Assembly: GCF_001548675.1 (NCBI RefSeq)
Contig: NZ_CP010834.1
Location: 1,709,501 to 1,773,500 of the forward strand
Length of the DNA stretch: 64,000 nucleotides
Reading direction: 5' to 3'
From: Methanobrevibacter sp. YE315
GTDB lineage: Archaea > Methanobacteriota > Methanobacteria > Methanobacteriales > Methanobacteriaceae
Shown here: positions 50,682-54,849 of the stretch, piece by piece
Layout of the letters: each line of letters starts with the position of its first letter
Numbering within the stretch: position 1 is the first letter of the stretch
Translations under genes and position numbers: made by a program
The notes under the pieces: generated by a model
Database searches by the model: none
Seen by the model: only the letters and a program-made list of their open reading frames with translations
Told to the model about the DNA's origin: nothing

Positions 50682-50903
50682 TTAATAAGAGTTAATCAAC
50701 TCGGAAAATAAAGAAACCGTTTCCTCAACACTCATTTCAGCATGTTTACTAACTTCAGCAAGATTGGCTTCCCATAGAGAAATTTTGCCCATTGGAGTTA
50801 CCAAAAACTCAAACTTCCAATTCTTTCTAGCCAAATCCCGTTTAAGCAGAGGATAAGTGTTTAAGAGATCCATATATTTTGAATCAGCAGTAATTTCAAC
50901 CAT
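50682..50903 (-). CDS. Small protein, DUF1858-like
   Basis: A 73-residue protein with the pattern of the DUF1858/ScdA-N helical domain: an ITADSKYMDLLNTYPLLKRDL opening and a helical end (MSVEETVSLFSELI). It lacks the CxxC seen in many relatives. Start at ATG 50903 behind AGGTGA. Function unknown. It lies between the ATP-grasp gene and the second FtsX permease on the same strand. Confidence 0.6.
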   Translation of the reverse strand: MVEITADSKYMDLLNTYPLLKRDLARKNWKFEFLVTPMGKISLWEANLAEVSKHAEMSVEETVSLFSELINSY

Positions 50904-50979
50904 CAAATCACCTTCATTAATAAATTGAAATCATGCATTTTTAAAGATTTTGTCACTAATTAAGGGTGAATAAGAAATC

Positions 50980-53250
50980 TTATTCAACACCTTTTAATGA
51001 CTCCACCATGTCCAGATTCTTGATTTTACGTGAAAACATCAGGTTAACAAGTATTGACAAAGTGAATGTTATTGCAGCAGTCAAAATTAGGTTTGTAACA
51101 GTGACTGAAGGCAAAACATAAAATGAATCGCCTGAAGACTCCCACATTATCTTTAATATGTAATAACCAATAGGAACACCCAATATAAACCCAATCGCTG
51201 TGAACCACAAATTTTGGGTCAACAATAGCCTTCTCAAAGACCCTGTCTTAAAACCTAAAACCTTTAATGTTGCTATTTCCCGTTCAATTTCTGTAAATGA
51301 TAATAATCCTAGATTATAAAGAACAACGACCGCCAAAAGGGATGCGAAGAATATCAGAATGTATATCAGCAACCACATTGCTTCTGTTAGCTCATCCCAA
51401 CTAGAAGTCATATCCTTCATGGAGTTAGCACTTTTAATAGCCGAATAGTTCTCATCGATATGCTCTTCAGTTACAATGCTTGTTGGAGTATAATTCAAGT
51501 CCAAATCTTCCAATTTATCTTTAGACATTATGAATCCCTGTGATGTTGGATCGGCATGTATCTTATCTATTTTTGTTTTTATCCATTTATCCGAACCCAT
51601 TATATGCCATTTAACAGTATCACCAACGCCTACATCCAACAAGTCAGCCATTTTTTGTGAAATTGAAACCTCATCATCGGCTATCTCAATCTTATTCCAA
51701 TTATAATCTGTAGGAGTTACCAAATCAGTATGGTTTAAAACCAAAAGCGAACCTGATTTCTTTGCTGAATCCGATTCTATTTCAATAGCAGATTCCATTA
51801 GCTTATCACCGTTTACTTCACTGGCAACATCATCAATTTCAGACATGGTGGCTTCCTCATCAATAACCAATTTAGAGTCATAATGATTAATCTGGTTAAA
51901 TTCCCATTCCTTTAAATCATTCATCCCATCATACATACCAAATGCGGATATTAAGAGTGCAGTACATCCAATAACGCCTATAATGGTCATTAATGCCCTA
52001 AACTTATTTCTTTTTGCATCACGATAATTCCAACGTGCATTAAATGAAAGATGTTTCCAAAACCCTAACTTTTCAACAAAGCCTGAAGATGAAACTTTAG
52101 GTGCTTTTGGCCTTATTGTATCCGCAGGATTTTCATTGAAAATGCTTTTAACTGCAAAATATGACACTAAAAGTGACATTATAACCATTGCCGCTGCAAC
52201 ATAAACAAAATCCATGCTCCATGCAGGTTTCCATGATGGCAGAATATATGTTGAACTCATTGATGGATAGAATAGCTTAGGCAGTGTCATTGGGCCGATA
52301 ACCAATCCTAGAATGGAACCGATTAAAACTAACCAGAATCCATATGAAATATAATGAATCATTATTGATTTGTCAGTGAAACCGCAAGCCTTTAAGATAC
52401 CGATTTGAGTTCTTTGATGAGCAATGATTCTTGTCATTGTTGTTAAAAGGATTAACATTGCAATTAAAATAAACACAACAGGGAAAATGCCCGCCATCAT
52501 CTGATGCTGATCCATTTCTTCTGAAAACTGACTAACACTGGTATGTTCTGATTTTTCAACAAATGAATTGTAATCCCCATCTAATTTTTCAGATAATAAA
52601 TCACTGTAATCATCCGGAGTTCCACTGAATTTTACATTTAAAACATTATATGGAACATCACTCATCGGAAATGCCTTATAAGACATATAAGCAAAACCGA
52701 TTTTAGAAAAATCAGGAATAACTGATGAAGTTGAAGCATGATAAACATATTCCGGAGAGTAACCTACCCCTTTAATTTCCTTTTCAATTTCAAACCCATT
52801 AAACTCAAAAGTGATATTGTCTCCCACTTTCAAATCTTTTGCATCTGCAAAACTTTTATCCAACCATACACCATCATCATCACTAATGTTTAACGGTTCA
52901 CCATCCATTAAATAGAATTTTGATATAGTGTTGTTTTCGACAAAATGCAGCTTTATTTCCGGATCATTTGAGAAGTCTGCAACCGAATCCAGAACTAATT
53001 GCCTTTCACTTTGGGTAGTCGGACTCAGATTATTTACCTTATCTACAAAATCATCATCCAAATTAGCTGAGTAAATCCAACCATCCGCTAAGTTTGTTTC
53101 ATTGTAATAATCATTCACATTTACTTCAAGACCAACTGATTCTCCGCCGACACCAGCAAACACAAATACGCCTAAAAATGCCATTAAAAAAATAGATATG
53201 AATTGTGTTTTATGCTTCCTGATGTCTCTCAACATCTTTTTGAAAAGCAT
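50980..53250 (-). CDS. FtsX-type ABC transporter permease (copy 2)
   Basis: A 756-residue two-module permease, paralog of 46299-48557 with the same architecture and many shared stretches (NLADGWIYSA, HFVENNTISKFY, NPADTIRPKAPK, EREIATLKVLGFK). Four bases after the LolD-type ATPase gene, with ribosome site GGTGA, so the two form one transporter. Such systems usually drive export or outer-surface mechanotransmission rather than uptake. Confidence 0.88.
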   Translation of the reverse strand: MLFKKMLRDIRKHKTQFISIFLMAFLGVFVFAGVGGESVGLEVNVNDYYNETNLADGWIYSANLDDDFVDKVNNLSPTTQSERQLVLDSVADFSNDPEIKLHFVENNTISKFYLMDGEPLNISDDDGVWLDKSFADAKDLKVGDNITFEFNGFEIEKEIKGVGYSPEYVYHASTSSVIPDFSKIGFAYMSYKAFPMSDVPYNVLNVKFSGTPDDYSDLLSEKLDGDYNSFVEKSEHTSVSQFSEEMDQHQMMAGIFPVVFILIAMLILLTTMTRIIAHQRTQIGILKACGFTDKSIMIHYISYGFWLVLIGSILGLVIGPMTLPKLFYPSMSSTYILPSWKPAWSMDFVYVAAAMVIMSLLVSYFAVKSIFNENPADTIRPKAPKVSSSGFVEKLGFWKHLSFNARWNYRDAKRNKFRALMTIIGVIGCTALLISAFGMYDGMNDLKEWEFNQINHYDSKLVIDEEATMSEIDDVASEVNGDKLMESAIEIESDSAKKSGSLLVLNHTDLVTPTDYNWNKIEIADDEVSISQKMADLLDVGVGDTVKWHIMGSDKWIKTKIDKIHADPTSQGFIMSKDKLEDLDLNYTPTSIVTEEHIDENYSAIKSANSMKDMTSSWDELTEAMWLLIYILIFFASLLAVVVLYNLGLLSFTEIEREIATLKVLGFKTGSLRRLLLTQNLWFTAIGFILGVPIGYYILKIMWESSGDSFYVLPSVTVTNLILTAAITFTLSILVNLMFSRKIKNLDMVESLKGVE

Positions 53251-53254
53251 AAGC

Positions 53255-53959
53255 TCACCATTCTAAATCAGTGACCTTTTTTGGATTTTCATTTACAGCA
53301 ATACTTTCAATTTGGCCGTTTTTAATCCTGATTACTTTATCTGCTGCTTCGGCTAAAATTGCGTTGTGTGTAACAATGACTACTGTAGTATCATTGTTAT
53401 TGCTCATATCCTGAAGCAGATTTAAGATTAAAACACCTGTTTTTGAATCTAAAGCTCCTGTTGGCTCATCACATAAAAGCATTGTAGGCTGTTTAGCAAC
53501 GGCTCTTGCAATAGACACCCTTTGCTGTTCCCCACCAGATAACTGTGCTGGAAACTGACTTGCATGGTCTTTCAGGCCAACGGAATCCAAAACATTCAAA
53601 CCGTCAATATCCACATCCACAATGTCTTTCATCAATTCAACATTTTCTAGAGAGGTCAAATTTGGAATCAAATTATAAAACTGGAAAATAAAACCAACAT
53701 TCTTTGCCCTATACTCAGTTAGCTGATTGTCATTGAATGATTCAACATGACTTCCATTTACAATAATCTGACCAGAGGTAACACTATCAAGACCGCCTAA
53801 AAGGTTTAAAAGTGTGGATTTACCCGCACCGGACGGTCCTAATATTACAACAAATTCTCCCTCATCTATTGTAAAATTCACATTATCCATAGCTTTCAAA
53901 ATGTGATCTCCGGACCTATACTCCTTATTCACATTTTTAAATTCAATTATTGTACTCAT
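53255..53959 (-). CDS. LolD/MacB-type ABC ATPase
   Basis: A 234-residue ATPase with Walker [10 protein letters not shown] (about 42-50), Q-loop in [12 protein letters not shown], signature LSGGEQQRV and Walker [12 protein letters not shown]. The typical partner of FtsX/MacB-type permeases. It starts the operon with the second permease. Its promoter contains the palindrome TTTAGGTATGCCTAAA right at the expected TFB/TATA site, suggesting metal-dependent control. Confidence 0.92.
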
Positions 53960-54009
53960 TAATATTGCCTTCTTATATTTAATTATCCACTTACTAATAT
54001 ATTAATTAA

Positions 54010-54036
54010 AGTATATAAAATTTAGGTATGCCTAAA
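54010..54036 (-). promoter_or_regulatory. DtxR-like operator and TATA box of the exporter operon
   Basis: TTTAGGTATGCCTAAA at 54021-54036 has 6-bp arms and resembles sites of DtxR-family (iron/manganese) repressors. On the minus strand it directly precedes TTTTATATAC (about 54010-54021), a good TATA box about 50-60 bases before the ATPase ATG. A repressor bound here would block TFB. The plus-strand hisA promoter is further right (CATATAAAAC near 54051). Confidence 0.6.
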
Positions 54037-54111: not shown

Positions 54112-54849
54112 ATGTCATTTAAAAAAGATGAAATGTTAATAATGCCTGCAGTTGACATCAAGAACGGAAAATGTGTTCAGCTTGTTCAAGGCGAACCGGG
54201 AAGCGAAATGGTAGAAATAGAAAACCCTGAACTTGTTGCAAAACACTGGGAAGATTTGGGAGCAAAAAACATCCATGTAATTGACCTTGACGGAACAATC
54301 AATGGTGTTGCCAGCTTCGATATCATTAAGAAAATATTAAAAGAAGTTTCTGTTCCAATTCAGCTTGGCGGCGGAATAAGGAGTGTTGAATACGCACGCG
54401 AACTATTGGACCTGGACATTGAAAGGCTGATAATCGGGACAATGGGAATTCAACATCCTGAAACCATCGAAGAACTCTCAAATGAATATGGATCCGATAG
54501 GATTATGATTTCACTTGACAGCAAGGACAACAGAGTAGTCATTAAAGGATGGCAGGAAAAGATTGATAAAAGTCCCGCTGAACTCTCACAGGAGTTCAAG
54601 GAGCACGGTGCAGGAAGCATCTTATTTACAAACGTGGATGTTGAAGGGCTTTTGGGTGGATTTTACACAGAACCTGTAGAAGAGCTTAAAAAATCTGTTG
54701 ATTTGCCTATTGTCTATTCCGGCGGAATTACAACAATAGATGATATTAAAAAATTAAATGAAAGTGGTGTGGAAGGTATTGTAATAGGCTCTGCACTTTA
54801 TAAAGATAAAATTGATTTAACAGAAGCTTTAAAATACCAAAAGAGGTAA
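54112..54849 (+). CDS. hisA: Phosphoribosylformimino-AICAR-P isomerase HisA
   Basis: Fourth step of histidine synthesis, an Amadori isomerisation. The 245-residue TIM barrel has the catalytic aspartates in PAVDIKNGKCVQL (N-terminal half) and in TNVDVEGLLGG (C-terminal half), plus the phosphate motifs GGGIRS and YSGGI. Only his gene in the window. It leads a plus-strand group with ribL (4 bases downstream) and argC. Confidence 0.95.
   Translation: MSFKKDEMLIMPAVDIKNGKCVQLVQGEPGSEMVEIENPELVAKHWEDLGAKNIHVIDLDGTINGVASFDIIKKILKEVSVPIQLGGGIRSVEYARELLDLDIERLIIGTMGIQHPETIEELSNEYGSDRIMISLDSKDNRVVIKGWQEKIDKSPAELSQEFKEHGAGSILFTNVDVEGLLGGFYTEPVEELKKSVDLPIVYSGGITTIDDIKKLNESGVEGIVIGSALYKDKIDLTEALKYQKR

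Follow-up and report, generated by a model that had tools for sequence, protein, structure and literature searches.

The DNA stretch analyzed in this work, here called the window, is a 64-kb part of the 2.27-Mb single-contig genome of Methanobrevibacter sp. YE315, and its features were compared with those of relatives from the rumen and gut that belong to the same genus. The minus strand of the window carries a gene for a LolD-like ABC ATPase of 234 aa (53255-53959; PF00005, 2.4e-35) and a gene for a permease of 756 aa with two FtsX domains (50980-53250; PF02687, in two stretches). lolD is read leftward and the divergent hisA gene rightward (54112-54849, plus strand; named by its sequence, without a domain scan), and the 152-bp gap between them includes the palindrome TTTAGGTATGCCTAAA (54021-54036, not assigned to a strand), in which the arms TTTAGG and CCTAAA surround a 4-bp center. 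This predicted DtxR-type operator is located 1 bp upstream of the lolD TATA box TTTATATA (54012-54019, minus), a spacing that recurs in the genome at four more promoters; given that the TATA box is only 1 bp away, one arm of the palindrome falls on the position of the transcription factor B recognition element (BRE). The Shine-Dalgarno sequence of lolD, GAAGG (53968-53972, minus), is conserved in the relatives. An earlier reading of this region made from the letters alone (the sequence-only reading) had marked positions 54010-54036, that is, the TATA box plus the palindrome, as a DtxR-like operator at the promoter of an exporter; the location is as it had claimed, and the resemblance turned out to be an identity with the 14-bp single-dimer consensus, TTAGGNNNNCCTAA, proposed for IdeR/DtxR in a structural study of IdeR (PMC8464063).

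The site is conserved in front of lolD. Thirty relatives have an intact upstream region, and in 24 of them the exact palindrome core is present right before the lolD TATA box; one further relative (L083) has the palindrome with a single mismatch. The other five (L067, L072, L085, L088 and L094) carry no site before lolD; in these, lolD-ftsX is placed on the same strand behind feoB-feoA-DUF6110-P1B, and for this reason it appears to share the feo promoter.

Within the window, TTTAGGTATGCCTAAA has no other exact match. In the whole genome, the motif TTTAGGNNNNCCTAAA occurs exactly 14 times and the reversed pattern used as control is absent; for 13 genomes of the genus the sums are 144 and 14, respectively. 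These numbers place the palindrome far beyond chance, and its uniqueness, which the sequence-only reading had named as the outcome that would speak against it, is ruled out. Allowing a single mismatch adds 22 places in the genome, some of them intragenic, and half of these are noise. It was observed that 13 of the 14 exact sites keep a constant distance to a TTTATATA box, in a stereotyped archaeal layout in which either the BRE is covered by a single site or the TATA box is enclosed between two. At the five single-site promoters, which include that of lolD, the box starts 17-18 bp past the first base of the palindrome; at the paired promoters it starts 28 bp past the upstream palindrome and 40-43 bp ahead of the downstream one.

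The genes found behind these sites, at around a dozen promoters, outline a predicted regulon. Assigned by position, exact sites precede, besides lolD-ftsX, a pair of ABC genes (ABC1-ABC2) followed by two genes for small ECF-like membrane proteins, an operon that encodes a DUF6110 protein and a P1B-type ATPase, and a gene for an LCM-family methyltransferase, as well as noncoding stretches and a possible microprotein of 20 codons; in a relative, the ABC1-ABC2 cluster also includes an ECF-type double ATPase. Imperfect sites precede feoB (456815 and 456866) and feoA (459090 and 459146), the sites counted at these two genes having 0-2 mismatches, and imperfect operators are also present at the sole dtxR gene (1366663) and in front of a Cys-rich open reading frame (ORF) of 38 codons and a DUF4012 gene (449831 and 449900). 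Hence the recurrence that had been anticipated near feo, transporter and dtxR genes is found at all three. In three other genomes the palindromes are at or before feoB/feoA, lolD, ABC1-ABC2, DUF6110-P1B and methyltransferase genes, and likewise at noncoding loci on the argG and argH sides. As in the regulons of DtxR and IdeR, a DtxR-family protein, the sequence TTAGGNNNNCCTAA at the target promoters, and iron transport genes among the targets occur together.

One of the operator-led noncoding stretches is a putative small RNA (sRNA) of which the genome has four similar copies (399888-400065; 449637-449808; 456435-456616, minus, divergent from feoB; and 744259-744447, minus). Homologous copies with three hairpins and anti-Shine-Dalgarno loops were located by locus at L042:1421-1651 (-), L040:4567-4865 (+), L043:4790-5000 (-) and L041:4780-4985 (+). 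A search with a single copy as query detected the RNA in 57 of 60 genomes of the genus, and in 31 of the 31 of high quality; with a covariance model and strict filters, 36 of 37 genomes of Methanobrevibacter gave a hit, against 0 of 63 from other genera. Its architecture includes three stem-loops, a U-rich end, and conserved unpaired segments (AATCTCCAAA, the loop TTTNCACAA and TCTGCCA, together with CTCTCC in most copies); those rich in C and U could base-pair with Shine-Dalgarno sequences, to which they are complementary. Rfam gave no match for the six loci that bear the RNA. Given that the element is multi-copy, and that the copy at 449637-449808 lacks an operator pair directly upstream, it could be regarded as a mobile element present in repeats, or as the leader of an mRNA, instead of an sRNA, but we consider this improbable. 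The fold has a z-score of -7.9 relative to shuffled sequence, and its helices covary, with 23 double-change cells against 5.5 +/- 2.0 in shuffled alignments, a value reached in 0 of 500 shuffles; for instance, the two sides of the second hairpin change in step from GGGAAAT/ATTTCCC to GGAATTT/AAATTCC. In addition to the conserved loops, the U-rich end and the presence in every high-quality genome, paired palindromes bracket the TATA box in three of the four genome copies, and in 31 of 34 copies overall two palindromes about 70 bp apart flank it; several copies adjoin feoB, and the copies run away from feoB or sit in gene-free stretches. The combination of a noncoding gene with predicted iron-repressor sites and a conserved structure whose unpaired segments could mask ribosome-binding sites is that of an iron-sparing sRNA.

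The candidate regulator is encoded by the only gene of the genome with a PF02742 domain; its product also includes PF01325 and a C-terminal FeoA domain. Of the 30 relatives compared, 24 carry TTTAGGNNNNCCAAAA (TTTAGGN4CCAAAA) next to the TATA box of its own promoter, and the left arm is kept in all 30; in other genera, the start region of the dtxR orthologues is itself the palindrome, with TTTAGGTGAACCTAAT spanning the ribosome-binding site and the start codon (L141, L143, L144 at 1898). Leyn and Rodionov (J Bacteriol 197:451) reportedly described in 2015 the DtxR-family regulons of Archaea, which have in common with the regulon predicted here a DtxR-type control of metal genes. When the protein is aligned to IdeR, the ligands Cys102, Glu105, His106, His79, Glu83 and His98 are all retained, without variation among the relatives. 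Four additional cysteines (C128, C137, C144 and C147; C-x8-C-x6-C-x2-C) are invariant or nearly so in the 30 relatives and recur elsewhere in the order, in other genera; they possibly form a metal or Fe-S site that IdeR does not have.

The metal to which this protein responds has to be weighed, since several observations speak for manganese. Its NCBIfam score is higher for MntR (105 bits) than for DtxR (78 bits), both under the cut-off; the position of Met10 is occupied by Glu12, like the carboxylate of manganese sensors; and in a PDB search it is close to the manganese regulators ScaR and SloR. According to these data, an MntR-type sensor of manganese, or of both metals, would make lolD-ftsX answer to manganese and not to iron. 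We consider this unlikely because the regulon includes feoA and feoB with their neighbors, and because the invariant Cys104 stands where ScaR, SloR and MntR carry Glu; all 30 relatives have this Cys ligand typical of iron sensors. The target genes examined included no manganese transporter, although none was searched for. Control of the exporter by iron or manganese, as the sequence-only reading had it, is therefore supported as a prediction, and iron is better supported than manganese as the probable metal. A different point against DtxR is that dtxR was undetected in seven of 60 drafts of the genus, and that the two of these in which sites were counted retain 14 and 18; another transcription factor could share the motif and dtxR be merely one of its targets. 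This is very unlikely, in view of the fact that the motif is the IdeR/DtxR half-site consensus and that dtxR, the sole gene of its family, carries it at its own promoter, as expected for autoregulation. In the same seven drafts the neighboring gene endA, required by archaea, is absent too, so that a missing contig is likelier than a loss of dtxR, and such a loss was set aside as an assembly gap. Lastly, the idea that the operator serves hisA, which is divergent and has a TATA-like box of its own about 15-20 bp to the right, can be dismissed almost entirely, because it is from the TATA box of lolD that the site keeps its constant 1-bp distance, and because the site stays with lolD in relatives whose hisA is elsewhere; hisA was thus ruled out as the conserved target.

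From these comparisons we consider it very probable that the palindrome is the operator of a single DtxR-family metalloregulator, and that the model as a whole, including iron repression of lolD-ftsX, is correct; the iron-responsive control of lolD-ftsX by DtxR, as read from sequence, is strongly supported. A DtxR dimer loaded with Fe2+ would most likely bind TTAGGN4CCTAA over the BRE/TATA region and block the access of TATA-binding protein and transcription factor B, so that lolD-ftsX would be repressed; upon iron shortage the genes would be released. The same regulator would control feoAB, the ABC/ECF uptake cluster, the P1B-ATPase operon, dtxR itself and several copies of the sRNA. The lolD site alone is of a known kind; what is new is the regulon together with an sRNA led by paired operators. 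For the organisms that produce most of the methane in the rumen, it represents a nearly complete and testable predicted iron regulon. With the IdeR/DtxR systems of Actinobacteria it shares the regulator family, the 14-bp operator and the uptake genes among the (here predicted) targets. In contrast, here the promoters are archaeal with the site on or around the BRE and TATA box, dtxR is predicted to be autoregulated, the regulator has Glu at the position of Met10 and four extra invariant cysteines, and the regulon includes small RNAs.

Regarding the exporter, a LolD-like ATPase that adjoins an FtsX-domain permease is the arrangement of the MacB/LolCDE type (type VII). LolD is the best NCBIfam model for the ATPase, yet under the equivalog cut-off, and the permease shows weak similarity to LolC, YtrF and MacB; no equivalog-level match to LolD, MacB or LolCE was obtained, and since every NCBIfam match was far under the cut-off, the system was not filed as LolCDE or MacAB. 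The nearest solved chain for the ATPase is MJ0796, solved relatives are distant, and the permease modelled with AlphaFold has a pLDDT of 52. In several relatives lolD-ftsX comes after ABC1-ABC2-ECF; the exporter is thus linked with iron uptake by two independent neighborhoods, this one and feoB-feoA-DUF6110-P1B. Being predicted to be under the same regulator as the iron genes, it would be part of the iron-starvation response, and iron homeostasis would thereby include an exporter of the LolD-FtsX kind. It perhaps extrudes or recycles a substrate that, as a guess, could be a molecule that binds iron or a component of the envelope. An ORF of 74 aa located behind ftsX (window 50682-50906, minus) is kept in at most 11 of 30 relatives and has no Pfam or NCBIfam match.

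The sequence-only reading had considered metal control an unusual context for MacB/LolCDE-type systems; this is only partly right, given that the MacB homologues PvdT (pyoverdine; PvdRT-OpmQ) and HrtB (heme; HrtAB) serve iron biology (PMC5985334). The likeness to PvdRT-OpmQ and HrtAB lies in having MacB/FtsX-type ABC exporters in an iron or heme context; the Methanobrevibacter system differs in that it is archaeal and has a single 756-aa permease with two FtsX domains and no adaptor or outer-membrane partner. The equibactin locus eqbA-N, with EqbKL and YbtPQ/IrtAB, also combines a DtxR-like regulator with proteins of the ABC-exporter fold for iron uptake (PMC3672683). ABC1-ABC2 resembles this arrangement; unlike that locus, lolD-ftsX is added here, and genes for siderophore synthesis were not seen, although none were searched for.

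In bacteria, RyhB, FsrA and IsrR are iron-sparing sRNAs. The Methanobrevibacter RNA could be a counterpart of RyhB and IsrR that arose independently; there is about an even chance that this genus-specific multi-copy RNA is controlled by DtxR and, when iron is low, spares it by pairing with, and masking, the ribosome-binding sites of mRNAs for Fe-S proteins of methanogenesis, e.g. hdrB. If true, archaea evolved their own iron-sparing RNA aimed at methanogenesis enzymes; none was found for archaea in the searchable literature, whose coverage is partial. The staphylococcal IsrR, conserved across its genus, combines two Fur boxes with three stem-loops and three C-rich regions, and it represses the mRNAs of iron enzymes at their ribosome-binding sites (PMC9410917). 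Both RNAs have two repressor boxes at the promoter, three stem-loops and C-rich single-stranded regions, and each is conserved throughout one genus whose genomes have a low GC content; the archaeal RNA differs in being multi-copy and in having DtxR instead of Fur, so the likeness is one of design, with no sequence relation expected. In Methanosarcina mazei, the intergenic RNAs sRNA154 and sRNA41 have been proposed to mask ribosome-binding sites (PMC5867862); these answer to nitrogen, whereas the Methanobrevibacter RNA is tied to predicted iron operators.

Target prediction for the RNA covered about one fifth of the genome, and 473 genes were sampled. Two perfect matches, both of 12 nt, were longer than all others, namely those of hdrB and fwdF, which encode iron-sulphur proteins of methanogenesis. 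The complement in fwdF persists also where no RNA was detected in the genome, and this gene was dropped as uninformative. For hdrB, a match of 10-13 nt is present in 30 of 30 relatives, its core also in G009, G011, G014 and G033, and it is absent in G012, G021, G029 and G032, in which the search did not detect the RNA or the RNA is without that loop; given that these four genomes are also the deep branches, the pattern could be explained by shared descent. Perfect matches of at least 9 nt were 13, against 12.4 under a null that retains the anti-Shine-Dalgarno core, and those of at least 11 nt were 4 against 1.2. Fe-S genes did not differ as a class when the four main RNA segments were taken jointly (35 ferredoxin-type against 380 other genes, p = 0.14). 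A difference was limited to the U-rich tail (p = 0.003) and a second RNA, element D (p = 0.017), with p values that are uncorrected and come from a sample enriched for Fe-S loci. Because the overall enrichment, at 9-10 nt, is not above the null with the anti-Shine-Dalgarno core, fwdF is uninformative and hdrB is open to shared descent, the identity of the targets is only suggestive; hdrB is the best candidate, and its 5’ region would pair with the RNA via the segments CUCUCCUC and GAGGAGAG.

Element D itself is located beside argG (2054082-2054250, plus; L060), is led by an operator and is unrelated to the first RNA; it has a long hairpin, ACTCTTAATTG/CAATTAAGAGT, a conserved segment, CATATAACTTTTCAACCTCAATT, and homologues in L225 and L222. 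A third operator-led stretch, at the 3’ side of argH (1352790-1352600, minus; L049), shows the conserved sequence AGCTCAGCTTC and has homologues in L218 and L230. Both stretches are kept in other genomes, and argG and argH were ruled out as targets, since the sites precede these noncoding stretches, which are conserved in position beside both genes. At 1172033 (minus; L048), an operator and a TATA box are followed by GGAGGT and the 20-codon ORF MIIGIENLKEKIKDEEKSDD, possibly an iron-controlled microprotein. The Cys-rich ORF of about 38 codons, whose product ends in WCFFFGCNCH, is located at 450094-450207 (plus; L041) and at L213:3141-3239, and it is operator-led in two genomes. The operator-led methyltransferase gene of the LCM family is found end to end with a feoB gene at L224:3001-5955, and this arrangement suggests an iron-related role for its product. 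Finally, the exact operator at 2215243 (L062) comes 40 bp after a TATA box; the hairpin GTGTTAAATTAGA...TCTAGTTTAACAC follows it, and a CbiM-like gene lies some 420 bp further on.
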